A DNA stretch of 64,000 bases from Prolixibacteraceae bacterium. Lineage in GTDB: Bacteria > Bacteroidota > Bacteroidia > Bacteroidales > Prolixibacteraceae. Below are positions 35,302-55,137 of the stretch, in pieces; position 1 is the first letter of the stretch; every line of letters begins with the position of its first letter. The DNA lies in assembly GCA_028282195.1 (NCBI GenBank), contig JANQII010000165.1:1-64000 (forward strand). The letters run 5' to 3'. A program made the translations under genes and the position numbers. The notes beneath the pieces were generated by a model. That model did not search any database and was not told the DNA's origin. It saw nothing but the letters and a program-made list of their open reading frames with translations.

Positions 35302-35345
35302 GCGGAGCAAGTTTGTGTTTTGGTCTGACCAAAACCTTGCTCTGC
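35302..35345. promoter_or_regulatory. Candidate oriT hairpin: GCGGAGCAAG..TTTTGGTC-T-GACCAAAA..CTTGCTCTGC
   Basis: 8-bp perfect inner stem plus near-perfect 10-bp outer arms, directly upstream of mobC. Confidence 0.6.
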
Positions 35346-35395
35346 GAGGCCAGAAACATCCCGTCGGTCTCTTTAACGATAAACATGGAATCCAT

Positions 35396-35758: not shown

Positions 35759-36659
35759 GATTGTTCAGGGACGTGGTTTTAAAGGAGCGATAAACTATGT
35801 GTTGGATAAAAAGAATGCCTGTTTGCTTTTTGCAGAAGGAGTACGATTGAAAGACAAAGCATCCGTCATTCAGAGTTTTATTACCCAAAGTAAACTGAAA
35901 CCTAAAATCTCAAAACCGGTTGCACACATCTCGTTAGATTTTTCTGCTCAGGATAAAAGTCGGTTAACCGACAAATTGATGGTCGATATCGCACATGAAT
36001 ACTTAGCGAGAATGGGATATGAAAATACACAGTACATCATTACCCGGCATCATGATACCGACCATCCGCATTTGCACCTGGTAATAAACCGGATTAACAA
36101 CAACGGAAACCGGATTTCCGACCAGAACGAGAAACTTCGCAACACAAAAGTTTGTATGGAACTGACAAAAAAGTATGGTCTTTATATTGCTTCGGGAAAA
36201 GAGAACGTAAAGGAACACCGGCTGAAAGAACCGGATAAAACCAAGTACGAAATTTACCGGATACTCCAATCAACTATACCCAAATGCCGGAGCTGGCAGG
36301 AACTGAATGCAAAACTTAGGAGATTTAGTATCTCCACCGAATTCCGAAAGAATGGGAATACCGACAAAATTCAGGGAGTAAGGTTTAGCAAGAACGGGTA
36401 TGAATTCAATGGCTCAAAAATTGACCGGGCATTTAGCTATTCAAAAATTAATTACCGCCTCCAGCAAAATGCATGGTCAATGAAGATCCGATCAAACCAG
36501 ACACAAATGAACAAGTCGGACAACACAACAGGTTTTTCCACTTTGAGTGGGCTGTTCAATTTATCTAACCCATCATCCGGTTATGATGAAGACCAAGCCG
36601 AATTTTTGAGGCAGGAAGCCCAAAAGCGAAAAAGACGAAAAAAAGGACGCAGGTTATAA
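35742..36659 (+). CDS. Relaxase/mobilization nuclease (MobA/VirD2 family)
   Basis: GRGFKGAINYVLDKK; HISLDFSAQDK; YIITRHHDTDHPHLHLVINRIN. Confidence 0.95.
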   Translation: MKMIAKIVQGRGFKGAINYVLDKKNACLLFAEGVRLKDKASVIQSFITQSKLKPKISKPVAHISLDFSAQDKSRLTDKLMVDIAHEYLARMGYENTQYIITRHHDTDHPHLHLVINRINNNGNRISDQNEKLRNTKVCMELTKKYGLYIASGKENVKEHRLKEPDKTKYEIYRILQSTIPKCRSWQELNAKLRRFSISTEFRKNGNTDKIQGVRFSKNGYEFNGSKIDRAFSYSKINYRLQQNAWSMKIRSNQTQMNKSDNTTGFSTLSGLFNLSNPSSGYDEDQAEFLRQEAQKRKRRKKGRRL

Positions 36660-36679
36660 TCAATAAAAGTTAATTAGTT

Positions 36680-37357
36680 ATGAGCACTGGAAAAATGGAT
36701 TCTTCAACGGTTTATGCACTGTTTGAAGAATTAAAACAAAGGATAGATGAAATAGGTAAAGGTGAAATCACAGGCAAACGGGAAAATTCAGGTTTTGATA
36801 GCGAAGAAATTGCCACATTAATACATGAGTTACGCAACAAGGCGATCCAAAAACGGTTTACACCTGAGCAAATAAAGGAATTGCAAAACAACCTGGCACA
36901 GGTTTCTGCCTACTCATTAAGGAAAGTCAATAACGACCTTACCTCTGTATTAAAAGAATTAAAAGCCATAATTACTCCCATCGATGAAAAGCTTAGTTTG
37001 TTACAAAACTCGCAAAATGCAGTTATCTGCAAAAAGCATGGATTTATCGTGGATTTTCGAAATAGTAAAGCAGCTATTACCATCATTACAATGGTTTTAC
37101 TCATTTTACTTTCATGGGGCGGCAATATTTGGCAATTCAGGAAAAATAATCAACTAAAGGATAACGACCTGAAATACCGGTATATCAAAATGGAAGGAAA
37201 AACAAGTCCCCAAGTAATACTCCAATTGGAAACAATTTTTACTTACGACCGGGATCGGGCTAGTATTTCTGCCATCCGGGAACGGGTTGAAACTTATGAA
37301 CGATCAGTCAAAGAACAGGCTGAGAAAATCGAACAAACAAGGCTCAATGTTAAATGA
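36680..37357 (+). CDS. Mobilization-associated single-TM coiled-coil protein
   Basis: AAITIITMVLLILLSWGGNIW TM, coiled flanks; follows relaxase. Confidence 0.65.
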   Translation: MSTGKMDSSTVYALFEELKQRIDEIGKGEITGKRENSGFDSEEIATLIHELRNKAIQKRFTPEQIKELQNNLAQVSAYSLRKVNNDLTSVLKELKAIITPIDEKLSLLQNSQNAVICKKHGFIVDFRNSKAAITIITMVLLILLSWGGNIWQFRKNNQLKDNDLKYRYIKMEGKTSPQVILQLETIFTYDRDRASISAIRERVETYERSVKEQAEKIEQTRLNVK

Positions 37358-37448: not shown

Positions 37449-38246
37449 CTAAATTATTCCCAGTTTCGTTGCAAGAATTACAGCCTCGGAAGAGTTGGAA
37501 ACACTTAGCTTTTTTATCAAGTTCCGGCGATGGTTGTTTACCGTGTTTACACTGATAGAAAGGCTTTCAGCGATCTGGTTGCTTTTTTCTCCTTTCGAAA
37601 TCAATTCCAGAACCTCTTTTTCACGGGTGCTTATATTGTTCCCGTTTGGGCTTTCTCCCCTGAGCGAATAGATTACTTCCCCGGAACGCTTATCACGAAG
37701 TAAAAACTGACCGGGCATATCTAAATTCTGGTTTGGTGAAAAGTCACAAAGTTTAAGGTCAAGCCATATGTTTCCTTTTTTATCCAGCTCGAGAATTTCA
37801 TTTTGAATAAGCAACCGAATCCACTCATCATTATCATTTTTTATCCTGAATTCATGGATAAGTCTGAGATTTTTTCGCTTTTCAACAGGAAGTTGGTAAA
37901 AGTATTTTAAAGTCCAGACACTTCCAGTATTGATAACATAGTCATCCGGGTGGAAACGCCGCCTGAACCATTTGTGGTCGGCGAATGGCAAATGATTGTT
38001 ATGAAAGCCAAAAATACTGTTAAAATTTTCGGAGAAATAGAAATAATCACGCTTGTAAAAATCAAAAGCAACAACAATGCTTGTTTGCAACGAATCAATT
38101 AGTTTTAAAAAAGGGAGAAATTTCTTCTCTGCTTTTTCATAATCAATATCCTCTGACCTGATAACGATTTTATCAAATTGTCTAGCGTGTTCATTGATAC
38201 TTTGTTCTAACCTCTCCATAAGGGATTTTTTCTTAAAAGTAGTCAA
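37449..38246 (-). CDS. LuxR-type regulator with PAS-like N-terminus
   Basis: STREKEVLELISKGEKSNQIAESLSISVNTVNNHRRNLIKKLSVSNSSEAVILATKLG. Confidence 0.9.
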   Translation of the reverse strand: MTTFKKKSLMERLEQSINEHARQFDKIVIRSEDIDYEKAEKKFLPFLKLIDSLQTSIVVAFDFYKRDYFYFSENFNSIFGFHNNHLPFADHKWFRRRFHPDDYVINTGSVWTLKYFYQLPVEKRKNLRLIHEFRIKNDNDEWIRLLIQNEILELDKKGNIWLDLKLCDFSPNQNLDMPGQFLLRDKRSGEVIYSLRGESPNGNNISTREKEVLELISKGEKSNQIAESLSISVNTVNNHRRNLIKKLSVSNSSEAVILATKLGII

Positions 38247-38407
38247 AAATGACTATTGGACAATTCTCTAATTATAAATATCTTATTGAAGTTTATTTTC
38301 CTGGGGTGTAAGAGAGATGTACTATTTTTTTTACTAATTGGTAACCCGTAATGTCACATTTTTGATCATATGGGTACTAAAGGGCAAAACATGAAATTTA
38401 GAATATT

Positions 38408-38980
38408 ATGAAAAACATTTACTTTTTACTTTTGGGGATCATTGCGCTAAGTCTTATATCATGTAACAGTTCAAGAAAAATTACGAAAGAAACTGCATCA
38501 GGAGAAGGTCGGGATGTATTTATTGTGCCTTGCGCTGATTTTAGTAAAAACTCAAAAGATGCTTTTCGAGCCACAGCGAGTGCTACAAGCCCCAACCACC
38601 AATTTGCAAAAGAAAAGGCAACAACTTTAGCCAGGAGTGCACTGGCTCAAAAGATTGAAACGTCAGTTGAAACAATGATTGATAATTATGCAAATCAATA
38701 TGACGTTGATAATGAGCAGGAGTTTAAAGAGATTACAAAAGCAATTACCCGGCAGGTGGTAGATCAGAAATTAACTGGACTTAATAAGACATGCGAACAA
38801 AGCTTCACACTTTCTTCAGGGAAATATGAAGTATGGGTTGGTATTGAAATGCCTATGGATAATGTTGGTAAATCTATTTATGACAGCATTTCACAAGAAA
38901 AGAAGATCCGGTTAGATTACGACTATGAGAAATTCAAGGAAGAATTACAAAAAGAACTGGAAAAAAGAAGAGAACAATAA
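38408..38980 (+). CDS. LPP20-like lipoprotein
   Basis: LISCNSSRK lipobox; FAKEKATTLARSALAQKIETSVE. Confidence 0.7.
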   Translation: MKNIYFLLLGIIALSLISCNSSRKITKETASGEGRDVFIVPCADFSKNSKDAFRATASATSPNHQFAKEKATTLARSALAQKIETSVETMIDNYANQYDVDNEQEFKEITKAITRQVVDQKLTGLNKTCEQSFTLSSGKYEVWVGIEMPMDNVGKSIYDSISQEKKIRLDYDYEKFKEELQKELEKRREQ

Positions 38981-39002
38981 CTTTTGAAAACTTCCTGAAT
39001 CT

Positions 39003-40820
39003 ATGAAACTGCCTGTTATAATATTTATTTCATTATGGTCTATTTCATTGAACCTGGAAGCACAGTCCATAACCGAAATAAGAAAATCGGGGAGATATCT
39101 TTATGGGCTGGGAAAATCTGAAGTCTATGAAAAAGCAGACCAGGCAGCTTTAAGCGATTTAATCAGCCAGATAAGCGTTAATGTTGAAGACAGTCTGACC
39201 ATTTTAAGAACAGAGATTGAGGGGGATTATAAAGAATATGCGCATTCGGTCGTTAATACTTATTCATCGGGTAGTTTATCAAATGCACTGCGGCTGGAAG
39301 AAGAAAGAGGTGGGGCTTATACAGTAATCCGTTATTTACCAAAAACTGACCTGAATAAAATTTTCGAGTCCCGTAAACAAGCAATCATTAATTATACTAA
39401 GGAAGGACTTAGGGCAGAATGGAAATTGCAAATTGGCGATGCGCTTCGAAATTTTTACTGGGCAAATATACTTTTAAGAAGTCACCCGGAATACAACAGT
39501 TTAAAATATGTTGAAGGGAATGACACTTTACAGTTAAAAGTTTTTTTACCTAACCGGATAAATGAAATATTCTCAAATATTGAAATAGAAGTTCAGGAAC
39601 AAAGCTATAAACCAGAAGAAAAATACGCCAGATACACGCTTAACCTGAAATATAAAAATAAGGACATACAAAATCTTGATTACACCTATAAGTTCAAAAA
39701 TTCCTGGTCTGGCACTGTTGATGCTGCAAATGGTTTGGCATTTCTTGAATTTTATGGTGACGATGCAAAAAAAGATAAAGAAATTAAAATCAGGGTTGAA
39801 TACATGTATCGGGATAAAGCCTTTTTTGATAAAGATGTTCAAAGCGTACTTTCTTCCGATTTGGATTTACCCTACTTTAATCGTTGTGAACTTACCGCTC
39901 ATCTTGATAAAGTAAAAACTGAAAATCCTCCTCTTTTGGTGGATGTTGAGTCTAAAGAAAAGATTAGCAAAATAGAAAAGCAATCTTTTAAAGATAAGTT
40001 TCAAAGTTTGTTGACTGCAATCGAAAAAAATGAGGTATTTTCTGATACTTCCCTGTTTACCGCTGACGGATTAAAAGCATACAATCAACTAATCAGATAT
40101 GGAAATGCAAAACTACTAACGGATAACAATAATCTTGAAATCATTAAAATTAATAATGAATCGATGGTTCGGTCTGTCCCGATGAAGTTCTCATTCTCAA
40201 AAAACAGGGACTTTGTTGAGGATGTCGTATTTATCCTGAACAATCAAGGTAAAATTGACGATCTGAATTTTTCATTAAGCGAAACGGCTATAAACGATAT
40301 CCTTTCAAAAGAAGATCGTTTTGCCTCACAGGAAGTTAAATTTTTTCTTATCCGGTTTATGGAAAATTATAAAACGGCCTATTGCCTGAAACGGCTGGAT
40401 TACCTTCAAAAAATATTTGATGAGGACGCCCTGATTATTGTAGGAAAAGTAGTTAAAAAGTCAAATCGCCCAGATGATTCGTATTATTCCAACTTTTCAA
40501 ATGAAGAAGTAACATACCAAAAGCTCTCGAAAAAACAATATTTATCCAACCTGAAACGTGTGTTTGACCTGAATGAATTTGTAAATATCCATTTTGAAGA
40601 CAATACCATAAAAAAAGCGAAAAAGGATATCAATATTTACGGAATCCAGATAGCCCAACATTATACATCGGCATCTTATGCCGACAAAGGATATCTTTTT
40701 CTGATGATTGATTTGCGAGATACCTTAAATCCATTGATTCATGTAAGGACATGGCAACCACAAAAAAACAAAGATGGTTCAATTTACGGACTGGAAGATT
40801 TTCCTTTTGAAACCTTATAA
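39003..40820 (+). CDS. LPP20-like large secreted protein
   Basis: Signal peptide; SGRYLYGLGKSEVYEKADQAALSDLISQISVNVEDS. Confidence 0.65.
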   Translation: MKLPVIIFISLWSISLNLEAQSITEIRKSGRYLYGLGKSEVYEKADQAALSDLISQISVNVEDSLTILRTEIEGDYKEYAHSVVNTYSSGSLSNALRLEEERGGAYTVIRYLPKTDLNKIFESRKQAIINYTKEGLRAEWKLQIGDALRNFYWANILLRSHPEYNSLKYVEGNDTLQLKVFLPNRINEIFSNIEIEVQEQSYKPEEKYARYTLNLKYKNKDIQNLDYTYKFKNSWSGTVDAANGLAFLEFYGDDAKKDKEIKIRVEYMYRDKAFFDKDVQSVLSSDLDLPYFNRCELTAHLDKVKTENPPLLVDVESKEKISKIEKQSFKDKFQSLLTAIEKNEVFSDTSLFTADGLKAYNQLIRYGNAKLLTDNNNLEIIKINNESMVRSVPMKFSFSKNRDFVEDVVFILNNQGKIDDLNFSLSETAINDILSKEDRFASQEVKFFLIRFMENYKTAYCLKRLDYLQKIFDEDALIIVGKVVKKSNRPDDSYYSNFSNEEVTYQKLSKKQYLSNLKRVFDLNEFVNIHFEDNTIKKAKKDINIYGIQIAQHYTSASYADKGYLFLMIDLRDTLNPLIHVRTWQPQKNKDGSIYGLEDFPFETL

Positions 40821-40822
40821 TT

Positions 40823-41956
40823 ATGAAAAAATACCTACACCTGTTTTTTATTATCCCGCTTCTGATGATTTTCTGTAATTTTAAAAGTACAGTCCTTTGT
40901 GCCCAGGAACTAAAGGTAGTTAGTTTTAAACATCTTGAAGGGAATACTACAGCCCGTGTAAACAGAAAGCGCGATATTAATGGGCAGAATTGTGCAATTC
41001 TGATTATTAAACACAATTTTAATGATTTTAGTGTTGAAGCCGGAAAAGATTACGAGCATCGCGAAGAGAAAAAAGGCGAAACATGGTTATGGCTATCACC
41101 AGACGAATATCAGATTGTTATTAGAAAAACAGGTTATATTCCGTTACAGGTTTCTCTTAAAAATAAATTAAAAGAACTTGAAACTTACGAGTTGATCGTT
41201 ACCGATGAATTTGGCTCTGTTCATGTTAAGGCTCCTGAAGCGCAAATTTGGTTAGATGACAAAGCTGTAGCAAAAAACGAATATACATTCAGGTTAAAAG
41301 AGGGAAGATATATAATAAAAGCAACGCGCCACAAGTACTATTCTCAGGAAAAATTTGTTGCCTTAAATGCAGGTGATGACCTTGAATATATATTTAACTT
41401 AAAACCTATCATGGGTAATCTTAATATATTATCATCACCAAATGCCACTAAAGGGGCAGATATATTTATTGATAACAGGCTAATAAAGGAAAAAACACCA
41501 GCCAATATTCCATTACTTATCGGAAACTATTCTGTAAAACTAACCAAAGATGGTTTTTTACCATTTAATCAAACCGTAAAAGTAAATGAAAATATAACTA
41601 CAAAGATTACAGCACAAATGCAGGTTGATCCAACTTTGCTTATACAAAAACATAAACGTTTGAAAAATTTCTGGCTAATTTCCACTGTAATAACTTCTGG
41701 TATTGGAGGTTATTCATTGTGGCAGTCTGACAAATTGTATAATGAGTATAAAAGTGCAACAAATAATGCCAGTGATATTCGTCAAAAAGTTGAAATGTAT
41801 GATACGCTTGCTCCGATTGCTCTTGGAGTTTCAGGATTCTGTTTTATTGAATTTATCATCCATGCTTCGAAACAAGGCAAGGCTAAACAAAAACTGAATT
41901 TGTATTCCTCTTATACCAAAGGTGGGGGAATGATGACTTTAAGCTACAACTTTTAA
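40823..41956 (+). CDS. PEGA domain-containing protein
   Basis: GADIFIDNRLIKEKTPANIPLLIGNYSVKLTKDGFLPFNQTVKV; C-terminal TM segments. Confidence 0.85.
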   Translation: MKKYLHLFFIIPLLMIFCNFKSTVLCAQELKVVSFKHLEGNTTARVNRKRDINGQNCAILIIKHNFNDFSVEAGKDYEHREEKKGETWLWLSPDEYQIVIRKTGYIPLQVSLKNKLKELETYELIVTDEFGSVHVKAPEAQIWLDDKAVAKNEYTFRLKEGRYIIKATRHKYYSQEKFVALNAGDDLEYIFNLKPIMGNLNILSSPNATKGADIFIDNRLIKEKTPANIPLLIGNYSVKLTKDGFLPFNQTVKVNENITTKITAQMQVDPTLLIQKHKRLKNFWLISTVITSGIGGYSLWQSDKLYNEYKSATNNASDIRQKVEMYDTLAPIALGVSGFCFIEFIIHASKQGKAKQKLNLYSSYTKGGGMMTLSYNF

Positions 41957-41974
41957 ACCAAAAACCAGTATCCC

Positions 41975-43198
41975 ATGAGTTGGAAACATATAATTTTTCT
42001 GATTGGAATAATTTCTGTATTTCTTTCCTGTGAGAAAAAAAACTGGGATAATCCGTATGATGAACAGTCTTCCCCGGATTTAGACTGGGCTCCATTCATA
42101 TCAAGTATTAAACAAGAAGATGAAAGTATTGTATTGGAATTTGGTTGCAGTGAAACCAATTTTGATTCTTATGTGATAGAAAGAAGTGTTGATAATGGTG
42201 CATTCTCCAAAGTTGCAAGCCCTGCAAAAACTGCAAATAGCTGGACAGACAGTAATATCACATCAGGAGGGAAATTGTATAAGTATAAACTATACTGTAA
42301 GGCAGGGAATAATTTTAGTAATTCTGTTGAAAGAAGCATAACTCCTTATTTAATTCCTGTTATTAAAATTCAAATAGTTCAAGTTACACATATAAAAGCC
42401 AGTTGTAAAATAACAATTGAAAATGATGGTGGAAATACTAATTTGAAAACAGTCGCAGTTTGTTGGAGTCAATATGGATCACCAAATGTCAATAGTGATG
42501 GATACAATAATAAAATCTATAATAGTGATGAAGATTCTTATATAATTGAATTAACAAGATTAAATCCAAATACGACTTACTATTTAAAAGGTATTTTGTG
42601 GTATGGAACAAGTTACATTTATAGCAATGAGATTACTATACAGACTGATAAAATGATAATTGTCCAGACTGAAACTTTTATTGATAGCCGTGATGGACAA
42701 GAATACCCTACAATCAAAATAAACAATCAAACCTGGATGGCTAAGAATTTTTCGCTAAAAGTAAATGACGGATGTTGGGCATATGAAAATAAAGAAAGCC
42801 TGGTTGCCGAATACGGAAGATTATATACGTGGAAGAAAGCAAAGGAAATATGTCCAGCAGGATGGCATTTACCAACCACTAATGAATGGAAGGATTTAAT
42901 TGAATATGTTGGAGGTCAATTTGCCGGGGTAGATCGTTTAAGAACTACATTTGGTTGGTGGTTGGGTAATGGTGGAACTAATGGAAACAATGAAACCGGA
43001 TTCTCTATTTCACCTAGCGGTTGGCACAACATAAACGATGACAGTTTTGGACATCGATACTTGCGAGCTTTTTATTGGACAGCAACAGAATCAGGAAATG
43101 CTAAAGCAGATTATTTTAGTTTTGAATATACTGGTTCATATGGAGTTGGCTCTTATGACAAAAGCTTTGGTTTTTCTGTTCGTTATATTAAAGATTGA
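41975..43198 (+). CDS. FISUMP (Fib_succ_major) domain lipoprotein with FN3-like N-terminus
   Basis: DSRDGQEYPTIKINNQTWMAKNFS...CPAGWHLPTTNEWKDL...FYWTATESG...FGFSVRYIKD. Confidence 0.88.
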   Translation: MSWKHIIFLIGIISVFLSCEKKNWDNPYDEQSSPDLDWAPFISSIKQEDESIVLEFGCSETNFDSYVIERSVDNGAFSKVASPAKTANSWTDSNITSGGKLYKYKLYCKAGNNFSNSVERSITPYLIPVIKIQIVQVTHIKASCKITIENDGGNTNLKTVAVCWSQYGSPNVNSDGYNNKIYNSDEDSYIIELTRLNPNTTYYLKGILWYGTSYIYSNEITIQTDKMIIVQTETFIDSRDGQEYPTIKINNQTWMAKNFSLKVNDGCWAYENKESLVAEYGRLYTWKKAKEICPAGWHLPTTNEWKDLIEYVGGQFAGVDRLRTTFGWWLGNGGTNGNNETGFSISPSGWHNINDDSFGHRYLRAFYWTATESGNAKADYFSFEYTGSYGVGSYDKSFGFSVRYIKD

Positions 43199-43204
43199 AA
43201 AATC

Positions 43205-43891
43205 ATGAGGGGAAAAATATTAATATTAGTTCTAATAAGTTTGATAATTGTAACCTGTAACAAAAAGTACTGGGATAATCCTCATGATGAAAATACCTCT
43301 TCATATTTCGATTGGTCAGCATCTATAACAAGCATTAAACAGGAAGAAGAAAGTATTGTGTTAGAATTTGACTGCGATGAAACCAATTTTGATTCTTATG
43401 TGATAGAAAGAAGTCTTGACAATGGTGTTTTTTCTAAAGTTGCAAGCCCTACAAAAACTGTAAATAGCTGGACTGATAATAATATTACTTTAGGAGGGAA
43501 ACTTCATAAATACAAGATTTATGCTGAAGCAGGGAGTAATTCCAGTAATTATGATGAAGCAGAAATAGTTGCTTATCTCCCTCCAAAATTTAGTGCAAGT
43601 ATTACCCAGATTACATATTATTCATTTTCATGGAAGATTGATGTCTACGATAATGGGGGAGCGCCAATAAATCATCGGTATAATATTTATTACAAAGAAG
43701 AAGATGAAAAATTAAGATCTATAAATGTTAGTTCAAGAGGAGAAATCCCCATTAGTGGTACTTTATCAAACAACACTATGCTGTCAATAAAAGCATCCAC
43801 TGTTTACTATATTCAATTTGAAATAATAAATAATCAAAATAAAAAAGGACTAAGTGAATTTTTTAAAATCACAACAAAGGATGAACCATAA
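43205..43891 (+). CDS. FN3-like lipoprotein, paralogue of preceding N-terminus
   Basis: ESIVLEFDCDETNFDSYVIERSLDNGVFSKVASPTKTVNSWTDNNITLGGKLHKYK parallels 41975-43198. Confidence 0.8.
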   Translation: MRGKILILVLISLIIVTCNKKYWDNPHDENTSSYFDWSASITSIKQEEESIVLEFDCDETNFDSYVIERSLDNGVFSKVASPTKTVNSWTDNNITLGGKLHKYKIYAEAGSNSSNYDEAEIVAYLPPKFSASITQITYYSFSWKIDVYDNGGAPINHRYNIYYKEEDEKLRSINVSSRGEIPISGTLSNNTMLSIKASTVYYIQFEIINNQNKKGLSEFFKITTKDEP

Positions 43892-44019
43892 TATTTTGCT
43901 CATGATAAAAGTCAATGCTGTAAACAAAATTAAACTTAAAAAAATGAAAACTAACATTTAAAAAGGATTTAAGGTGAAATAAAAAAATCATTTATCAGCA
44001 ATAACTAAAATTTGCAAAC

Positions 44020-44988
44020 ATGAAAAGATTAACAATATTTTTAGTCTGTTTTCTAATCATTACAAATGGATTTTGTCAAGACATCGATGGTATGTTATGT
44101 GGATCTGAAGGTGAAAAACCTTTCTGGATTCTAAGATTTGATATAATTGACTCAGAAACTCATTATCCGATCGATGATGCGATAATAAATATTACTAGTG
44201 AAAGTGGCAAAGAGTTGAAGTGGCCCGCACACCGAGATGGATTCAGTATATTAATAGTAACAGATCCTAATTGTATTCCGGTTGATGGACAAATAGAAAT
44301 TACTTCCCCAAGGTATAGGTTCTATCAAAAGCCAATAAGACGAAATTATTTTAAAACTGAGAAAGATGATCGAATGATATATCTAGAAGGATATAACCAA
44401 AATTGGACCGATTTAAATCAATTACCAGAAACGCAAGAAATATTTGACAAAATAAGGGATAAAAGATACAGGGTTGGAGTGAAGGAAATTAATTCTGAAT
44501 TTGGTTTTAGGGTGGCAAACTTTGCCCCCGCTTGTTTTGAATACAGTGTTGAAATGGAAAGAATCAATGGAGAGGACTTTTACTCGGATCACAGCCCCTA
44601 TAATCGTGTACCTCAAAAAAATAATTCCAATCTGAGAGGATTTCAAATCCCTTCAATTACTTACAATGGAGAGACCATCTATGTTTTTCCCAATGATTTG
44701 ACGAATGGGCCATACCATTGGGATCAGGCTAAAAATGCGTGCAGTTTATTGAATCGGTTAGGTTATGACGATTGGTATTTGCCTTCAAAGGAGGAATTAA
44801 ACGTTTTATATATCAACAAAGACAAAATTGGCGAATTTAATGGATGGTATTGGAGTGCGACTGAGTCATCATCGAGAAATGCCTGGATACAAAATTTTAA
44901 GTATGGAACACAGGAAACCATATATAAAGGAACTACCTACAATATTCACAAAGGCAATATTAAAGTACGATGTATAAGAAAAGAATGA
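44020..44988 (+). CDS. DUF1566/FISUMP-like secreted protein
   Basis: ACSLLNRLGYDDWYLPSKEELNVLYINKDKIGEFNGWYWSATESS...IKVRCIRKE. Confidence 0.8.
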   Translation: MKRLTIFLVCFLIITNGFCQDIDGMLCGSEGEKPFWILRFDIIDSETHYPIDDAIINITSESGKELKWPAHRDGFSILIVTDPNCIPVDGQIEITSPRYRFYQKPIRRNYFKTEKDDRMIYLEGYNQNWTDLNQLPETQEIFDKIRDKRYRVGVKEINSEFGFRVANFAPACFEYSVEMERINGEDFYSDHSPYNRVPQKNNSNLRGFQIPSITYNGETIYVFPNDLTNGPYHWDQAKNACSLLNRLGYDDWYLPSKEELNVLYINKDKIGEFNGWYWSATESSSRNAWIQNFKYGTQETIYKGTTYNIHKGNIKVRCIRKE

Positions 44989-45360
44989 AAATAAATCTAA
45001 AGGTTACCTTTTTGTTACTGATTGTTCTACCAACTATACAGGAATCTGGATTAATAATGTGAGGTTTGGTTTTAACTGTAAATTGCTTGGTGGCGCAGGG
45101 CTTTCTTTTAACGAAGGAAAGTTATTTCAAATGTGGTTTTGCACAAACACAGATCTTAAAGAAATAATGACTCGTAATTTTGAGCCAGGAGTAAGGCATA
45201 GTTACTATACAGATGATAATAAAAGAGAATGGTGGGATGCGACAACTTATTCATGTTGATTATGAAGTTGGTTCTGTTTGGATAGAACAATGGAAAATTA
45301 ATGACAAAGCCTATCAAAGAGATCATAGAAGAACTGATTTTAAAAGATATTTAAGACTAA
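44985..45360 (+). pseudogene. Frameshifted small secreted protein gene
   Basis: MKINLKVTFLLLIVLPTIQ signal-like start, then VRFGFNCKLLGGAGLSF...WWDATTYS and HVDYEVGSVWIEQWKINDKAYQRDHRRTDFKRYL in other frames. Confidence 0.5.
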
Positions 45361-45373
45361 AAAATCAATCAAA

Positions 45374-45805
45374 ATGAAAAATTTTAATTATTACTTAGTT
45401 GTTATGGTACTTTTTGTTTTTCAAAGTACCTCTGTTTTCTCACAAGGAAAAATAAACAAAGTTATTGATGGGGATTTGTTCACAATTGTTGTGAAAGGAT
45501 ATGCATCTGAAAAATTGTGGATAGGATGTACAATTAATCCTGACACTTATAGCGAAATTGATTTAAAACCTAAACGTGTATCGAAGGGAAATTATGAAGT
45601 GTCATTTAACTTAAGTACTGGTGCTGCCAACAGTTTAATGCGGGGGAATTCTTCAATACCATATGTAGTTGCATTATGGGAAGAAAAAATTAGCTTGAAA
45701 GAATGTGAAAAAAGATATGGAAAAGGCTCAAAGCAATGTAAGTGGGCAAGAAAAAATGGATACCAGTTTGAGGGTAGGATTGATAGGTATTCAGGAAGAT
45801 ATTAA
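45374..45805 (+). CDS. Hypothetical secreted protein
   Basis: Signal peptide MKNFNYYLVVMVLFVFQSTSVFSQ. Confidence 0.6.
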   Translation: MKNFNYYLVVMVLFVFQSTSVFSQGKINKVIDGDLFTIVVKGYASEKLWIGCTINPDTYSEIDLKPKRVSKGNYEVSFNLSTGAANSLMRGNSSIPYVVALWEEKISLKECEKRYGKGSKQCKWARKNGYQFEGRIDRYSGRY

Positions 45806-45822
45806 CCATAAATTACTGAAAG

Positions 45823-46263
45823 ATGAAAAAGATAATAGTATTGGTGACCATATTCCTTCTTAGCATGAATGCATTCTCCTCTAAAATCATAGTAGTTGGT
45901 GTACTTGAAAGATACAACAAACATGAGGATTATTATTGTACTATTAAATCTATGAATGATGCTCCCGAAAGAGTAATTAGACTAAACATAGAAAATGAAC
46001 TAAAACAATACCCGGGATATAATGCGATGACCGATTTTATTCATGTATTTATAGGTTTTCCTGGTGAAAAACATCTTACCATAATTGAATATAAAAATAA
46101 ATATGGAGTAGGAATTGGATGTAATGAAAAAGAAGCATTGAAAAAAGCTGAAAATATAATAAAGCTATATTTTGGAATAGGAAGTTATCCTAAATTCGAA
46201 TTAAATAAAAAGCTTAATTATAAAATCAAATATTCAAAAAATTTAACTGATAAATTAAAATAA
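45823..46263 (+). CDS. Hypothetical secreted protein
   Basis: Signal peptide MKKIIVLVTIFLLSMNAFS. Confidence 0.6.
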   Translation: MKKIIVLVTIFLLSMNAFSSKIIVVGVLERYNKHEDYYCTIKSMNDAPERVIRLNIENELKQYPGYNAMTDFIHVFIGFPGEKHLTIIEYKNKYGVGIGCNEKEALKKAENIIKLYFGIGSYPKFELNKKLNYKIKYSKNLTDKLK

Positions 46264-46267
46264 AACT

Positions 46268-46909
46268 ATGAAAACAAATACTATTTTGCTTTTCCTTCTC
46301 TTTGTTTTCTTTAGCTCTAAAGCTCAAAACTCAGGAGTATTCACAGATAAGAGAGATGGTCAAAAATATAAATGGGTAAAAATAGGGAATCAAATATGGA
46401 TGGCAGAGAATTTAAATTATAATTCTGGGCGAGGTTCAGGTAAATATGGTTTAATCTATGGGCGTATTTATGATTGGGAAACCGCAAAAAAAGTTTGTCC
46501 GAGTGGCTGGCACCTACCATCAGACAATGAATGGAAACAATTAGAAGAAACATTAGGGATGCCAGTTTCAGAACTTAATAAAGAGGCTTCTTTTGACAGA
46601 GAGACCGGTCAGGTCGGATTAAAATTAAAATCGAAAAGTGGATGGAGGCTAGGAATGGGTAAACGCAATGGAAATGGCATTGATTTGGTAGGATTTAATG
46701 CTTTACCTGGTGGACATTATAATTTGAGATTAAAGCGTTTTCAACTTTATGGACACACTATTTATTTTTGGACTTCTGATATTCACTCTTGGGATGGTAA
46801 CTATCCAAATATCATCATCAGAGGTATTACTAATGATGATGATGGAATCAATCGTATTAGTTTCCCTGACACTTTTGGTGCATATATAAGATGTATAAGA
46901 AATAACTAA
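46268..46909 (+). CDS. FISUMP domain secreted protein
   Basis: DKRDGQKYKWVKIGNQIWMAENLNYNS...CPSGWHLPSDNEWKQLEETLG...GAYIRCIRNN. Confidence 0.92.
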   Translation: MKTNTILLFLLFVFFSSKAQNSGVFTDKRDGQKYKWVKIGNQIWMAENLNYNSGRGSGKYGLIYGRIYDWETAKKVCPSGWHLPSDNEWKQLEETLGMPVSELNKEASFDRETGQVGLKLKSKSGWRLGMGKRNGNGIDLVGFNALPGGHYNLRLKRFQLYGHTIYFWTSDIHSWDGNYPNIIIRGITNDDDGINRISFPDTFGAYIRCIRNN

Positions 46910-47025
46910 TATCAGGAGAGGCTGTCAAGTTCAGTTATCAAAATTCGGGAATTTGAAAAAGATTTCATATACCTACCTAATGAAAACCTTTAGGGGGCAG
47001 CTTTAATAAACAAAAAAACACAATA

Positions 47026-47346
47026 ATGAAAAAACCTCGTTTTGACTTTATTTACCTGTTGGTTGTATTAGGCATTATATTCCTGATAATACAATTTGAT
47101 ACTTTAAATACCACAACATTAATCACCTATCTGGCTTTTTTCGATATTATTTTGGGTTTCGTTCTCATTTTAAAAGGATTTATCAAATGGGATATGAGTT
47201 ACATATTCACGGGAGCATTTTGTGCTTTGTGCTCTTTTTACTCTTTTAAAGAAATGTCTGATTCCGCTCTTTTCTTTCTTATACTTGGTGGATTGGCAGG
47301 AGTTGGGAACCACGTTCGGAAAACGTTTAAAAATCTGTTGGGATAA
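47026..47346 (+). CDS. Hypothetical multi-TM membrane protein
   Basis: Hydrophobic segments. Confidence 0.6.
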   Translation: MKKPRFDFIYLLVVLGIIFLIIQFDTLNTTTLITYLAFFDIILGFVLILKGFIKWDMSYIFTGAFCALCSFYSFKEMSDSALFFLILGGLAGVGNHVRKTFKNLLG

Positions 47347-47366
47347 ATTGATTTAAACCAAAATAA

Positions 47367-47984
47367 GTGTCACAAACCATCCGAAATAAGTACAATAAAG
47401 TAGCGTATTCCGAAAAAGATTTAATTACGGGGATAATTCAAAACCAGGACTGGGCCATACGCGAAATTTACAAAACGCAATATGTAGTAATAAAAAAAAT
47501 GGTTTACACATTCAGAAATACAACACTTGAACCGAATGATATTTTCCAGGAGGGTTTAACCCGGGCAATCCTGAATATCAGGAAGGGGAAGTTTAACCAA
47601 CACAGTACTTTTAGTACTTACCTGAATGGAATCTGTAAAAACATTTGTTTAAAACAACTGCATCAGCAAAAAAATATACCCGTTATTGAAGAACAAACAC
47701 CTGATTTTCAAGAAGAAGATTTGTATTATGAAATGCTTTCGTTGATTAATCATATTAAGGCACATTTAAACACTAACTGCCGCGAAATTATTGACCTGCG
47801 TTTTAACCAGGACGATAAACAGACTGACAAATTAAATCCAAAGAATAAGCTAACCGGATTTGAAGAAATTGCCGAAAGGTTGAATATCACGACCGACAAT
47901 GCACGCCAACGTTTTAAACGTTGCCTCGAACAATTGCGGAAAATGGTTTTTGAACATCCTGAGTATAAAACATTATTTGACTAA
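47367..47984 (+). CDS. RNA polymerase sigma-70/ECF-type sigma factor
   Basis: LEPNDIFQEGLTRAILNIRKGKF..STFSTYLNGICKNICLKQL (region 2); FEEIAERLNITTDNARQRFKRCLEQLR (region 4). Confidence 0.88.
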   Translation: MSQTIRNKYNKVAYSEKDLITGIIQNQDWAIREIYKTQYVVIKKMVYTFRNTTLEPNDIFQEGLTRAILNIRKGKFNQHSTFSTYLNGICKNICLKQLHQQKNIPVIEEQTPDFQEEDLYYEMLSLINHIKAHLNTNCREIIDLRFNQDDKQTDKLNPKNKLTGFEEIAERLNITTDNARQRFKRCLEQLRKMVFEHPEYKTLFD

Positions 47985-47987
47985 ATC

Positions 47988-48668
47988 ATGAGTAAATTAA
48001 CTGATAAAGACTTCAACCTGATTGAGGATTTTATTTCAGGAATCCTTTCACCTGAAGAAGAAAAAAGATTTAGGGAAAGACTGGAAAAAGATACCGGGCT
48101 GGCTAAAGAATATAAGTTCCGTACTAAAATAAAGAAATACTGGAATGATGCAGAAACCTATTCAACCACAAAGGATAAAATAAAACATGTGATTGCTTTT
48201 GAAAAAAAGAAAAAAAGCAATAGGCTTGTTTGGTCAATAGCTGCATCTGTCGCGATCTTAATAGGAATTTCCGCATTGATTTATCCGCAATTAAACATAA
48301 AGGAATCTAGCCTGGTTGATACAAAATCTGATCCTGTTGTTCCCAGGGGTACGCCATTATACATAGAACAACAGCCAGAAAAAGGAAAATTATATACGCT
48401 ACCCCTGACTTTTACAACAAAAGATACTTTACTCATCAGGCGTAAACCGGATTTTCCAGACTCGGGAACAGTAAGTTTAATCGAACAGGAAAATCACAAA
48501 GAAATATTTAGGATGGAATACTCCCGGGAGATTGATTCCATTTTAATTCCTCTATCCCGGATAACTCCCGGAAATTACCAATGGACAATTAACGGCACCA
48601 TGTATTCCGGTAGTTTTCGGATTCAGGAAGGCAATTCACAACAAAACAGCAAAATGGAAGTAAGATGA
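47988..48668 (+). CDS. Putative anti-sigma factor-like single-TM protein
   Basis: N-terminal IEDFISGILSPEEEKRFRERLEKD, central TM VWSIAASVAILIGISALIYP, overlaps/next to sigma gene. Confidence 0.65.
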   Translation: MSKLTDKDFNLIEDFISGILSPEEEKRFRERLEKDTGLAKEYKFRTKIKKYWNDAETYSTTKDKIKHVIAFEKKKKSNRLVWSIAASVAILIGISALIYPQLNIKESSLVDTKSDPVVPRGTPLYIEQQPEKGKLYTLPLTFTTKDTLLIRRKPDFPDSGTVSLIEQENHKEIFRMEYSREIDSILIPLSRITPGNYQWTINGTMYSGSFRIQEGNSQQNSKMEVR

Positions 48669-50122
48669 AAAAAATAGTGTTGCTTTTGATATTCAATTCA
48701 ATAGGATTTTATTCCATTGCACAACCTGATTCCATTATCCGACAATTTCAAATGGATTTTGAAGCTTACAAAAATTCAGTGGATCAGGAATTTAAAAAAT
48801 ATAAAGCTCAAAACGATTCTGCATTTCTTCATTTTTTAGAACAAACATGGAAAGAATTCGAGATTTTTCGCAGGACACAGCCTGTGCGCCCGAAACCTGT
48901 TGAGCAACCTGTTATTAAAGAAAAAGAAGACACGATTCCCCAACAGATTGAAACAATTGTTCCTATTAAATCATCGGCACAGGTGGAAAAAGAAATGCCA
49001 TTCCCTGAATTAAAAGAAGCGGAGGCAATCAAGTTTGAAGCCCGGATAATTTCCCGTCCGTTCAATTGTTTTGGAGAGCAGGTGGAGTGTTATTATTACC
49101 CCGATAAGCTTCCCCGCCTGACTTTTATAAATGAGAACTCTATAAGACAGTTTTATAAAACATTAACAAAGAATGATATTCTTTGGAATTACAACCTCGC
49201 AGGGTTTGAAAAATTTAAAACAAGGCATAAATTAAACGACTGGGGATACTACCTGATAATAAAAAAAGCTTCTGAGAATATTTTCCCCCATCAAAATGAG
49301 CAAATTTTATTTATATGGTATGCTCTTTTGAAAAGCGGGTATCAGGCAAAAGTTAGTTATAACAATAATAAAATATACCTGTTACTCCCGTCACAACAAA
49401 GGTTATTTAATATACTTTATCTCAATGAAGAAGGGACAGATTACTATTTGTTGGACAATCAGGACAAAAAACCCGGAGAACTTAAAACCTATCCGGGATT
49501 TTTTACGAAGAATCCGAAAATCATTTCATTCAAATTAAACGAGCTTCCTGTTTTTAATCATGATAATATAAAAATTCGTCAGATTGCTTACGACCAGCAG
49601 AATATTCAATTAAAATTCAATCCGCAGTTAATCGATTTTTTCAACACGTTTCCCCAATGCGAATTAAACACATATTTGGGAACTCCCATATCACCTGAAA
49701 ATATTAAGATTCTGGATAACTTACTTAACCCTTTATTAACAGGGAAAAATAAAAGAGTTCAGGTGGATATTCTCCTGGATTTTATACAAAAAGCGATTGC
49801 CTATAAAACAGACCAGGAACAATTTGGGAAAGAGCGTTACATGTTTGCCGAAGAATGTTTGTATTATCCTTATGCAGACTGCGAGGACAGAACAAATTTA
49901 CTGGCGGAACTGGTTGCCCGATATACCCAACTGGCAACAATTGTATTAAACTTTCCCGAACATGTTACCCTGGCTGTGAACTTCCCAAATAACGAACAAG
50001 GCGATTTTGTACTTCATAAAGGGAAGAAATACCTTGTTTGTGACCCTACCTTTATAAATGCCAAAAGCGGAATGCTTCCGGTAGATTTAAAAAATAAGAA
50101 GCCAAAAATAGTTGTAAACTAA
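48665..50122 (+). CDS. Secreted transglutaminase-like protein
   Basis: YPYADCEDRTNLLAELVARY...FPEHVTLAVNFP...KYLVCDPTF resembles a Cys-His-Asp transglutaminase-like triad. Confidence 0.6.
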   Translation: MKKIVLLLIFNSIGFYSIAQPDSIIRQFQMDFEAYKNSVDQEFKKYKAQNDSAFLHFLEQTWKEFEIFRRTQPVRPKPVEQPVIKEKEDTIPQQIETIVPIKSSAQVEKEMPFPELKEAEAIKFEARIISRPFNCFGEQVECYYYPDKLPRLTFINENSIRQFYKTLTKNDILWNYNLAGFEKFKTRHKLNDWGYYLIIKKASENIFPHQNEQILFIWYALLKSGYQAKVSYNNNKIYLLLPSQQRLFNILYLNEEGTDYYLLDNQDKKPGELKTYPGFFTKNPKIISFKLNELPVFNHDNIKIRQIAYDQQNIQLKFNPQLIDFFNTFPQCELNTYLGTPISPENIKILDNLLNPLLTGKNKRVQVDILLDFIQKAIAYKTDQEQFGKERYMFAEECLYYPYADCEDRTNLLAELVARYTQLATIVLNFPEHVTLAVNFPNNEQGDFVLHKGKKYLVCDPTFINAKSGMLPVDLKNKKPKIVVN

Positions 50123-50135
50123 GAACTTTATAAAG

Positions 50136-53100
50136 TTGTCAGATATGTTCAAATTTTACCTAATCCATAGAAGAAAGTTGATTGCAGCATTTATTGTAAT
50201 TCTTTATTCGTTGCAATTAAATGCACAATTGGTAACTCCTGAATTAGCCCAAAAAGTTGCAGCAAATTTTTATAATTCACAAATGCAGTCAGACAAAAAC
50301 TTTAAAAGTGCTGATGTCGATCAACTCTCACTTGCAAAAGTGTGTTACAGTAAACAAACACTAAAAAATACAGATGAAGAAAAGATACCATTGTATTACA
50401 TTTTTAATATTGAAGATGATAAGGGATTTATAATTGTTTCAGGAAGAAATGGAATAAATCCAGTTATAGGTTACTCAACTAACGGTGAGTTTCCAAAGAA
50501 TAAAAAACATCCTATTTATGATTGGATAGAGTTTATGAAAATCCGGTTATCTTCAAGGTTAGAAAATAAATCGACTGGATTAGATACTAATAATATAAAA
50601 TTTAATTCTCAAGCGTATGCCACAGTTGGTCCACTATTAGGGAATATTGAATGGGATCAAGGTGCACCATATTATTGTTATGTTGTTGATCTTTATGATG
50701 AATTTGTACCAATGGGCTGTGTTGCTATTGCTTGTGCCCAAATAATGCAATATTATAAATATCCATTGATTGGAATAGGAAATATGAATTATAAGGAAAG
50801 TGGAAATGATCCTAAACTTGGGAATATTTATGTCAACTTTGAAGATAATTATTATAACTGGCATTTGTTTGAAGATAAAATAGAATTTAGAAATGATTTG
50901 AGTTGTGATAATGAAAAAAGTGGAGTCTCGGAAGTTATATTTGAAATTGCTGCTTCATTGGAAACTGATTTTGGAAATAGAGCGGATGATGGTAGTGTTG
51001 CATATATTGAGAATGTATTTGGCGCAGATGCACATCATGCATTGGAAGATTATTTTGGATTTAAAGGGATAGAATACAATGGTACTGGCTTGACAACAAG
51101 TTTTAATGAATGGAAAAATTTAATTATCAACGAACTGAACGATCATCGTCCCATAATATATTCTGCAAATGATGGAATAGTTGGTGAGGGACATGCTTTT
51201 ATTTGTGATGGTTATGATAGTGAGAATAGATTTCATTTTAATTGGGGATGGAGAGGTGAAGGAAATGGTTGGTTTTTATTAGATTCTATGCAACCAGATG
51301 TTAGGTGGGGAGATCCTGATTACTCTTATGAGATTTTTTTAACATCTATGTTAACTGGAATTGCGCCTGATTTCGACAATCCTGCTATAGATCAATTTGA
51401 ACCAGATAATACCTATAACAAGGCCACTACATTAGAACACAATAAACCTCAATTGCACAGTATTTCTCCCCAAACCGATCGTGATTATTATAAATTTATT
51501 TTAACCTCTTCTGCAAATGTCACTATCGAAACCAAAGGTGTCAATGGGAATACACAAATGTGGTTGTACGATTCAAATCAACAATACATGGACTATGATG
51601 ACGATTCAGGCGATTCTGGAAGTGGACCAAATAGTAAACTTGTAAGACAACTTTCCAAAGGTACATATTATGTGATGGTGGAAGAAAAAGGAGGTGATGC
51701 AAACATACCAAGTTATGTAATTTCATTGGATGTTGAATATCTTCCAACAAACGAACCGCAATTAAGTAACATTAGTTTTTCACCGCAAACCGGAGATCAA
51801 TCAACTACTTTTAACTTTTATGTGGATTATTACGATGCAAATGGAGATGCACCAGAACAAAATGGTGCAGAATGTTGCATAATCGGTGAAGGATGTAAAA
51901 CCATGCAGCGTATTAGTGGTACTCCTTCAAATGGTACTTACAGGTATTCCATACAATTACCAATTGGATCCCATCAATTCAAATATAACTTTACGAATAC
52001 CGTGGGAGAAAGAGTTGAAACTGAATATATGCAGGGTCCAATAGTTACTCAGGAAGTTGAAAATAGACCTCCAAATAAGCCAACATTAATTACGCCTGAG
52101 AATGGGATAACAGTTTCAGTGCCTTTTACATTTAGTTGGGATTGTACTGATCCAGATGGAGATCAATTGACTTATAATTTTGCAATTAGAAAGGATGGAG
52201 GAAATTGGGACAGTGAGGGATTCACTCAAACGTCATGGGAGATCACTGAAGAACTTGATGAAAATGAATATGGAACTTATGATTGGTATATTATGGCATC
52301 GGATGGAGAATTCGAAACTCAAAGTGATATATGGACATTTATTATACAAGAAAATACTCCCAGTATTAATGTAAATGATTCACTTGCACTTGTAGCACTT
52401 TATAATTTATGTAATGGCAATAACTGGACAAATAATTCAAACTGGCTAACGACTCCTGTTAAAGATTGGTACGGAATAACAGTGGAAAATGCCAGAGTAA
52501 CTCAAATAAATTTAAGTAATAATAATTTGGCTTATCATTTGCCTGAAGAAATCGGTAATTTAACTGAGCTTGTAAAACTTGATGTCGGGAAAAATAATTT
52601 GGAAGGAACAATACCAACTGAAATTGGCAATCTTACAAATTTGGTATATCTTATATTGGGAGACAATTATACTGGGGTTCACAATAAATTTACGGGTGAA
52701 ATACCGATTGAAATTGGAAATTTGAAAAAACTTATGATCCTAATACTAGACTTTAATGAACTGAGTGGAGAAATTCCGGATGAAATATGGAATCTGGAGA
52801 ATCTGATTTACTTAAGGTTACAAGGAAACCAATTCACCGGAAGAATTTCTAATAAAATAGGTAATTTATCAAATTTGCAGTTGTTATGGTTAGGAAAGAA
52901 TCAACTCATCGGAAATATTCCGCAAGAAATTGGGAACTTGTCCAGGTTAATTTATTTAAGTTTGATGAGTAATAAACTCACAGGAGAGATTCCAGAATCA
53001 ATTGATCAATTAACTAATCTAAAAAGTTTTAATGCAGCTGACAATGAGTTATCGTTAATTCCCAACTCATTAGGAAATCTGTCCGGGCTATATTCAATCT

Positions 53101-54500
53101 CATTACATAACAATCAATTTACAGGTGCAGTGCCTTCAACATTTACGAACCTTTCGAATTTAGAGTTGATAAACTTAAGAAATAATAAATTGACGGATAT
53201 ACCTGATTTAAGTAATCTCAAAAACTTAGTTCGGGTTGACCTCTCCAGTAATTCTTTTTCGTTCGAAGACCTTGAAGCTAATATGAATATTACTTTAAAT
53301 ACTGTAGGCCCATCTGGAAACCAATTTGGTAAAGGTTTTTATTACTCCCCTCAAAATAAAATTGGAGAAGCTTATTCTCTAGAAATAAACGAAGAACAAG
53401 ACTATACATTATCAGTTGATTGCGGAGGGACAAATAATCAATATCAATGGTTCAAAAATGATATTGCTTTAAATAATCCTAATTCTGATCCAAGATATAT
53501 TATCAACTCATTCGGTAAAGAAAATGAAGGTATTTATACGTGTAAAATATCCAATTCTTTGGTTCCTGATTTAGTTCTTGAATCTTACCCGATTACACTT
53601 ACAATGCAAGATTTAACGGCACCAACTTTGTCAGTTACCCCATTGTCAAGTTCCAATTTACCTAATCAATTTAGTGTTTTCCTCACTTTTAGCGAAGATG
53701 TAACAGGTGTTGTAGAAGGTATATCTGTAACTAATGGAGTTGCAAATATAACAGGTACCGGTAAAAATTATACTGTAATCATTAATGCAGAAGACAATAC
53801 TGAGGTAACATTATTCATCGCCAACACTGTTACCGATATGGCCGGGAATCATTTTGAAGGAATGTCATATAATTACTCAGTTGGAGATAATACACCTCCA
53901 GTGATGACTGCCTGCTATCCAAATGATACTATAATTGACGACAATCATCCTACTTTCAATTTTTCTTTTAATGAAGAAATCGTTTTGGGCAGTGGAAGCC
54001 TAAGAGTTTATCAGAAAAATGGTACCACAACTCCCACACTTTCAATTCCTTTTGTTGAAAATATGATCGATGGGAAAAATGTTTCGGTAACTTACGAATC
54101 CTCAACTAACAGAAATTTTGAATTAAATACCGAATACTTTGTTACAATAAATGCCGGTTCTTTTGCCGATTTGTCTGGAAATATATTTGAAGGTATTAAA
54201 GATAGTGATACCTGGCATTTCAAAACAGGAACAAATTATGCCACTTCTATAAAAATGATTGTTGACAATTCAATTAATATTTACCCTAACCCCGTAAGTC
54301 AACACCTAAATATTGAATTTACAACAATGCCCAGGAAATACGAAATTGAATTTTACAATACCGTTGGCCAAATGGTTATCCAAAAACAAAGCGCTAACCA
54401 GGTAGAGCAACTAAATTTAAAGGAACTTACAAACGGTATATATTATCTTAAGATTTATAATGAAGAATTTTCAAAAACTGAAAAGATAATCGTAAAATAA
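50136..54500 (+). CDS. C10 (streptopain-like) cysteine protease fused to PPC-like, Ig-like and plant-type LRR domains with T9SS sorting signal
   Basis: MGCVAIACAQIMQYYKYP, GHAFICDGYD..FHFNWGWRGEGNGWFLL; PPC YDSNQQYMDYDDDSG; repeated LxxNxLxGxIPxxIGNLxxL; C-terminal NIYPNPVSQHLNIEF...GIYYLKIYNEEFSKTEKIIVK. Confidence 0.9.
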   Translation: MSDMFKFYLIHRRKLIAAFIVILYSLQLNAQLVTPELAQKVAANFYNSQMQSDKNFKSADVDQLSLAKVCYSKQTLKNTDEEKIPLYYIFNIEDDKGFIIVSGRNGINPVIGYSTNGEFPKNKKHPIYDWIEFMKIRLSSRLENKSTGLDTNNIKFNSQAYATVGPLLGNIEWDQGAPYYCYVVDLYDEFVPMGCVAIACAQIMQYYKYPLIGIGNMNYKESGNDPKLGNIYVNFEDNYYNWHLFEDKIEFRNDLSCDNEKSGVSEVIFEIAASLETDFGNRADDGSVAYIENVFGADAHHALEDYFGFKGIEYNGTGLTTSFNEWKNLIINELNDHRPIIYSANDGIVGEGHAFICDGYDSENRFHFNWGWRGEGNGWFLLDSMQPDVRWGDPDYSYEIFLTSMLTGIAPDFDNPAIDQFEPDNTYNKATTLEHNKPQLHSISPQTDRDYYKFILTSSANVTIETKGVNGNTQMWLYDSNQQYMDYDDDSGDSGSGPNSKLVRQLSKGTYYVMVEEKGGDANIPSYVISLDVEYLPTNEPQLSNISFSPQTGDQSTTFNFYVDYYDANGDAPEQNGAECCIIGEGCKTMQRISGTPSNGTYRYSIQLPIGSHQFKYNFTNTVGERVETEYMQGPIVTQEVENRPPNKPTLITPENGITVSVPFTFSWDCTDPDGDQLTYNFAIRKDGGNWDSEGFTQTSWEITEELDENEYGTYDWYIMASDGEFETQSDIWTFIIQENTPSINVNDSLALVALYNLCNGNNWTNNSNWLTTPVKDWYGITVENARVTQINLSNNNLAYHLPEEIGNLTELVKLDVGKNNLEGTIPTEIGNLTNLVYLILGDNYTGVHNKFTGEIPIEIGNLKKLMILILDFNELSGEIPDEIWNLENLIYLRLQGNQFTGRISNKIGNLSNLQLLWLGKNQLIGNIPQEIGNLSRLIYLSLMSNKLTGEIPESIDQLTNLKSFNAADNELSLIPNSLGNLSGLYSISLHNNQFTGAVPSTFTNLSNLELINLRNNKLTDIPDLSNLKNLVRVDLSSNSFSFEDLEANMNITLNTVGPSGNQFGKGFYYSPQNKIGEAYSLEINEEQDYTLSVDCGGTNNQYQWFKNDIALNNPNSDPRYIINSFGKENEGIYTCKISNSLVPDLVLESYPITLTMQDLTAPTLSVTPLSSSNLPNQFSVFLTFSEDVTGVVEGISVTNGVANITGTGKNYTVIINAEDNTEVTLFIANTVTDMAGNHFEGMSYNYSVGDNTPPVMTACYPNDTIIDDNHPTFNFSFNEEIVLGSGSLRVYQKNGTTTPTLSIPFVENMIDGKNVSVTYESSTNRNFELNTEYFVTINAGSFADLSGNIFEGIKDSDTWHFKTGTNYATSIKMIVDNSINIYPNPVSQHLNIEFTTMPRKYEIEFYNTVGQMVIQKQSANQVEQLNLKELTNGIYYLKIYNEEFSKTEKIIVK

Positions 54501-54954: not shown

Positions 54955-54965
54955 TGATTTTCAGG

Positions 54966-55039
54966 TAGCGAGAGGCGGGCTTGAACCGCCGACCTCATGA
55001 TTATGAATCATGCGCTCTAACCAGCTGAGCTACCTCGCC
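54966..55039 (-). tRNA. tRNA-Met(CAT), elongator type
   Basis: Cloverleaf: GGCGAGG acceptor, TAGCTCAG D-arm, CATGA-TTCATAA-TCATG anticodon arm, GGCGG-TTCAAGC-CCGCC T-arm. Confidence 0.92.
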
Positions 55040-55052: not shown

Positions 55053-55137
55053 ATTTTGGAATCGACCTCATGATTATGAATCATACATTCTAATCATCCC
55101 GATAGCTATCGGGAGAGCTACCTCGCCATTCCAAAAT
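55053..55137 (-). pseudogene. Degenerate second tRNA-Met copy with CCCGATAGCTATCGGG insertion, enclosed in a 10-bp inverted repeat
   Basis: GGCGAGGTAGCTC and ATGATTCATAATCATGAGGTCG match the intact tRNA; T-arm absent; ATTTTGGAAT/ATTCCAAAAT flanks. Confidence 0.75.

Follow-up and report, generated by a model that had tools for sequence, protein, structure and literature searches.

An integrative and mobilisable element (IME) in an uncultured Bacteroidales bacterium carries as cargo a real gene module, because the same gene order recurs in the chromosome of a distant relative. The core comprises two LPP20-like proteins (LPP20a and LPP20b), a PEGA-domain protein, lipoproteins of the C-type-lectin fold (FISUMP, FGE and Lcl types), a sigma factor (SIG), a putative anti-sigma factor (ANTI) and an exported transglutaminase-like protein (TG). 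We read it, with confidence about evenly balanced, as one conserved module: an ECF-switched protease/lipoprotein system for envelope remodelling. The parts of the cargo are of known kinds and the joined module is a new arrangement of them. As a first-pass annotation had supposed, the combination seems undescribed, no account of it being found in the open-access papers searched.

The mobile element

The window (the whole stretch of DNA analysed, 64,000 nucleotides) contains a 25,952-bp element integrated in a tRNA-Met gene, with a direct repeat at each end (29010 and 54962). The repeat corresponds to ~48 bp of the tRNA-Met 3' half; the copy at 29010 aligns with 54958–55010 over 53 bp at 96% identity. 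Positions 37449–54500 constitute the whole cargo, and the remainder holds the following features.

29010–29058, no strand: attL, the displaced 3' part of tRNA-Met at the left element end
29236–30468, plus: tyrosine integrase of the element (PF00589, 1.4e-14), with SAM-like and arm-binding domains
32976–35284, plus: replication genes, a DUF5906 helicase-like protein and a primase (CHC2 zinc finger, Toprim)
35315–37357, plus: mobilisation genes, NikA/MobC (PF21983), a MobA-type relaxase (PF03432, 4.8e-36) and a 225-aa backbone protein
54962–55010, no strand: attR, the direct repeat within the intact tRNA-Met gene (54964–55039, minus)

From its integrase, att repeats and relaxase the element is classed as an IME, with excision and transfer predicted. 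The class was assigned because the element has a relaxase whereas the ORFs scanned yielded no family of type IV secretion, neither a conjugation ATPase nor a pilus family. In its integrase, primase, MobC/NikA, relaxase and tRNA-Met att repeats it resembles other tyrosine-recombinase IMEs resident in tRNA genes; it is ordinary as an IME, and its novelty is its cargo.

An Rfam scan gave tRNA as its sole match. A second, smaller integrated element lies directly to the left (21375–29010), with its own integrase at 21559–22932 and 20 bp of att core in common, and the two elements are a tandem insertion at one tRNA-Met. Just beyond the tRNA gene, at 55063–55096, there is an additional partial copy of the tRNA anticodon region (88% over 34 nt), which is perhaps the scar of an older insertion. 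In four relatives from the genus, tRNA-Met adjoins the right flank seen in the window and no element gene lies beside it; the left flank of the window was not found there.

Cargo genes

The cargo genes are as follows.

37449–38246, minus: divergent PAS-LuxR regulator (GerE, 2.2e-17)
38408–38980, plus: LPP20a, an LPP20-like lipoprotein (LPP20, 1.4e-3) with lipobox LISC
39003–40820, plus: LPP20b, an exported LPP20-domain protein with a C-terminal NTF2-like domain (AF2 pLDDT 79; NTF2-like Foldseek matches)
40823–41956, plus: PEGA-domain exported protein (PF08308, 1.6e-12)
41975–43198, plus: FISUMP lipoprotein (PF09603, 7.9e-28)
43205–43891, plus: lipoprotein (fn3), a partial paralogue of the gene at 41975 without the FISUMP domain (repeat D1)
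44020–44988, plus: Lcl_C/DUF1566 exported protein (PF07603, 1.8e-11)
45374–46263, plus: two small exported proteins of 143 and 146 aa, of no family
46268–46909, plus: FISUMP exported protein (PF09603, 5e-31)
47026–47346, plus: 106-aa membrane protein (a weak LiaF-TM match only)
47367–47984, plus: SIG, an ECF-type sigma factor (TIGR02937, 1.4e-17, above cut-off)
47988–48668, plus: ANTI, a putative single-pass anti-sigma factor with a beta-rich periplasmic domain
48665–50122, plus: TG, an exported transglutaminase-like protein of LapG type, triad C406-H433-D460
50136–54500, plus: C10 protease (C10, 7e-42) with Spi propeptide, leucine-rich repeats (LRRs), Ig-like domains and T9SS sorting tail; accessory

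Every gene that the first-pass annotation had named was confirmed in its place, with LuxR divergent and the rest on the plus strand; Pfam and NCBIfam models matched the LuxR, PEGA, FISUMP, Lcl_C, sigma and C10 proteins. Its view that nearly all are exported also stood: a simple hydropathy and lipobox check found an export signal or lipobox in 11 of the 14 plus-strand genes, the exceptions being the sigma factor, the anti-sigma factor and the membrane protein at 47026. The three proteins that it had grouped as FISUMP/DUF1566 resolve into two FISUMP proteins (41975 and 46268) and one Lcl_C/DUF1566 protein (44020). The lipoprotein at 43205–43891 keeps only the N-terminal part of its FISUMP neighbour, with 78% DNA identity over 300 bp, and is a recent partial duplication.

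LPP20a and LPP20b both fall below the Pfam LPP20 cut-off (1e-3 and 2e-4, respectively). LPP20b matches the solved LPP20 protein 4kzs (2e-5), and an HH alignment links the two LPP20-like families (probability ~90). SIG has regions 2 and 4 without region 3 (PF04542, PF04545), which is the ECF layout. The putative assignment of ANTI draws on its position beside SIG, one transmembrane segment at ~79–102 and a weak model match, no family scoring above cut-off. The C10/LRR protein has the C10 domain, Spi propeptide and sorting tail that characterize C10 cargo of the T9SS. Intergenic gaps of 116–385 bp suggest that the cargo comprises three or four transcription units; promoter and terminator scans of the cargo region were at or below chance, with no shared promoter motif shown.

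Conservation of the core

The gene order LPP20a–LPP20b–PEGA–FISUMP–FGE–FISUMP–(256-aa protein)–SIG–ANTI–TG is kept on a 50.9-kb contig (L032) of the Bacteroidales MAG AS22ysBPME_306, a distant relative. Identities between the window and L032 are 73% for LPP20a (the first gene of the L032 cluster), 61% for LPP20b, 48% for the PEGA protein, 52% for SIG, 39% for ANTI and 48% for TG, and the 3-bp spacing between SIG and ANTI and the 4-bp overlap of ANTI with TG are identical in the two. The L032 cluster lies amid chromosomal metabolism genes, its neighbours—judged from sequence starts—being of [FeFe]-hydrogenase type and from core metabolism, and the contig has no tRNA and no mobilisation gene. 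We treat the module as a unit because this order, with its close spacings, is found in a second, non-IME contig. The proposal of an envelope module that is carried by an IME and has a sigma/anti-sigma pair of its own was upheld. A module specific to IMEs was rejected, since this closest copy is chromosomal and gave no relaxase match (in a relaxase search that lacked a positive control). Spread by phage or plasmid was likewise rejected, as no LPP20b relative was found in viral contigs or plasmids.

Other genomes show parts of the same association. Of the 22 LPP20b genes outside the window (20 genomes), 17 have a PEGA gene ≤6 kb away, where density would predict 1.4% each, and in most copies PEGA adjoins LPP20b. 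TG is present in 25/32 genomes with LPP20b and in 47/262 others (Fisher 1e-11), with the two genes ≤12 kb apart in nine of the 25 genomes having both; these statistics treat genomes as independent although they are related, so that the p-values are rough. Runs of sigma, anti-sigma and TG genes also occur in L008/L041, L010, L033, L034, L035 and L037. The anti-sigma profile was not used as a module marker because 156 of 295 genomes gave matches to generic anti-sigma factors. LPP20b–PEGA(–TG) and sigma–anti-sigma–TG are mostly found apart and are joined only in the window and L032; because these two sub-modules also occur separately, the window and L032 represent the joined form.

The rest of the cargo is more loosely attached. 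The LuxR gene, the genes for the 106-, 143- and 146-aa proteins and the C10/LRR protease gene are not conserved: all are absent from L032, LuxR and the protease also from nearly all other loci, and the protease does not adjoin TG in any other sigma/anti-sigma/TG locus. FISUMP is a dispersed family, with no member in 8 of 20 LPP20b genomes and up to 26 scattered matches in others, and was rejected as a core member, as were LuxR and the C10/LRR protease. The co-occurrence of neighbours that the first-pass annotation had offered as a check leaves most of its claim standing: it holds for the order shared with L032 and for the PEGA–LPP20b and TG–LPP20b linkages; it fails for LuxR, the C10/LRR protease and the small genes. 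LuxR as regulator of the module, the protease as a member, a tight tie to FISUMP and restriction to IMEs were all given up, and a role in surface attack was not supported.

The cargo might instead be a composite, i.e., several independent envelope genes that the IME gathered and that share no one function. The unconserved genes and FISUMP copies, the several likely transcription units and the mostly separate sub-modules fit this explanation; the core order kept in the unrelated setting of L032 and the strong pairwise linkages among core genes argue against it, and we regard it as unlikely.

TG as a proposed LapG-type protease

Pfam has no family for TG at E ≤ 0.1, the LapG/BTLCP model included, and searching the PDB by sequence gave no match. 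TG carries a signal peptide, and its AlphaFold model has a pLDDT of 88. Foldseek matched the catalytic domain to LapG structures 4u65_E and 4fgq (probability 1.00, E ~1e-3), the match covering this domain only (140–150 of 485 TG residues, 15–19% identity), and also matched TG to a Cytophaga transglutaminase-like structure, 3isr; the label transglutaminase-like is thus backed by fold. C406, H433 and D460 do not vary across 39 diverse TG homologues, and the D-C-E-D motif around the cysteine presumably resembles the calcium-binding surroundings of LapG.

LapG is a Cys-His-Asp triad protease that cuts an adhesin off the cell surface (PMC3032545). Like LapG, the periplasmic cysteine protease (BTLCP/DUF920) of the Lap adhesin system, TG is exported and has a Cys-His-Asp triad and the same catalytic fold; unlike LapG, it has a long extra N-terminal region and no LapD- or LapA-like partner. 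The cargo was found to contain no LapD-type receptor or adhesin partner domains—neither a c-di-GMP receptor nor a giant adhesin of LapA type. Moreover, LapG is under c-di-GMP control, whereas TG adjoins a sigma/anti-sigma pair as its proposed regulator.

These features, together with gene order, allow a mechanism to be proposed for the core. Judging from its anatomy, ANTI would sit in the inner membrane with its periplasmic domain outward and hold SIG inactive until a signal from the envelope or surface freed it. Freed SIG would then activate its own operon and, probably, that of the lipoproteins. Adjacency and export signals suggest that LPP20a, LPP20b and the PEGA protein may assemble in the outer membrane or periplasm and there display the FISUMP/FGE proteins. 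TG, whose fold and triad match those of LapG, would cleave or process a surface or envelope protein and so remodel the surface. LuxR and the C10/LRR protease would be added cargo. Counting against this reading are the lack of a receptor and adhesin in the cargo, a LapG match confined to the catalytic domain, the several likely transcription units and the usual separation of the two sub-modules.

The cargo slot in related elements

The 225-aa backbone protein beside the cargo has matches, many of them weak, in 37 of 298 relatives, and related genomes hold IMEs of the same family with unrelated operons in the same cargo slot. A congener, G298, retains the integrase (72% identity) and the mobilisation genes (64–87%), with the element end again in tRNA-Met and att copies 20,390 bp apart. 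Its cargo (L187/L188, G298:C4, ~877–897 kb) comprises a sigma factor, a TPR-bearing anti-sigma factor, a 1315-aa secreted WD40-caspase, lipoproteins and a SecD-like protein. Elsewhere in the family, judged from sequence starts only, the slot holds sigma–FecR–SusC/D genes (L200, L209), TonB receptor genes (L201), phosphate-transport-like genes (L207) or RND efflux genes (L210). As the cargo differs operon by operon among family members, the slot accepts whole operons, and the family thus displays the swapping of entire regulated operons in one place. A remote LuxR relative occupies the equivalent position in another IME (L214); on gene arrangement, the divergent regulator at the slot start (LuxR in the window) is taken to be a feature of the slot, not of the conserved module.

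As in the ECF surface-signalling operons of Bacteroidota such as FecR-SusC/D, the sigma gene of the window lies beside that of a putative single-pass anti-sigma factor, and in L200 and L209 the slot is occupied by FecR-SusC/D versions. The window module differs in having no TonB receptor, the downstream genes being for a protease and LPP20/PEGA lipoproteins.

The G298 cargo bears on another explanation, in which the module serves conflict or regulated death: the sigma/anti-sigma pair would sense envelope damage by phage or competitor, and TG, within a caspase-linked protease network, would be an IME-borne defence or suicide effector. Of 46 TG loci (39 genomes), 11 have caspase genes ≤10 kb away (expected 1.2% each), and genes for secreted CARDB-caspase (C14) proteins, significantly linked to the TG family, occur in TG loci L034, L041, L054 and L168 among others. 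We keep this role in consideration, as a distinctly improbable one, because of TG's link to caspases and because the sister IME pairs a WD40-caspase with sigma/anti-sigma. On the other hand, the window cargo has no caspase; PADLOC models, run on 10 cargo proteins, matched nothing beyond generic LuxR-type DNA-binding domains; the cargo proteins are exported, as most defence effectors are not; and other IMEs of the family bear SusC/D, TonB and transport operons. A broader possibility, which we put forward only tentatively, is a new, transferable class of envelope systems in which a dedicated sigma/anti-sigma switch governs a LapG-fold periplasmic protease that works with LPP20/PEGA lipoproteins and, in sister loci, with secreted caspases. 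Such a protease network would lie outside the cytoplasm and serve to remodel the surface or to bring about regulated death.

Wider occurrence of the TG family

Although it has no Pfam name, the TG family is widespread, being present in 73 of 295 sampled genomes of the order (about a quarter) as well as in some records of Gammaproteobacteria. With an invariant triad and the recurrent company of LPP20, PEGA, sigma/anti-sigma and caspase genes, the family opens to experiment an envelope protease system that is widespread and apparently undescribed.

Of 74 TG loci, 51 have LPP20-like genes within 5 kb and 11 have CsgG-like genes nearby. These neighbours, and the NTF2-like domain of LPP20b, could point to structural assembly, with TG maturing or cross-linking a surface filament or scaffold of LPP20/PEGA proteins, akin to curli-type export. 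The window shares LPP20-like lipoproteins with CsgG/LPP20 clusters of the curli or flagellar-ring type, but its cargo has neither CsgG nor a filament subunit and the best specific fold match of TG is a protease, not a cross-linker, so that this explanation is highly doubtful. We keep to the ECF-switched remodelling module as the preferred reading.

TG homologues also appear in records named Bacterioplanes, Psychrosphaera and Gynuella (L056, L087, L089, L098), and in L056 and L098 an LPP20a-like gene is directly upstream of TG. A long TG form (~870 aa) occurs in L043, L046–L048, L059, L062, L070 and L072, with an LPP20-like gene next to it and CsgG- and LPP20b-like genes in divergent orientation; to judge by sequence, this neighbourhood is another conserved, unnamed cluster.
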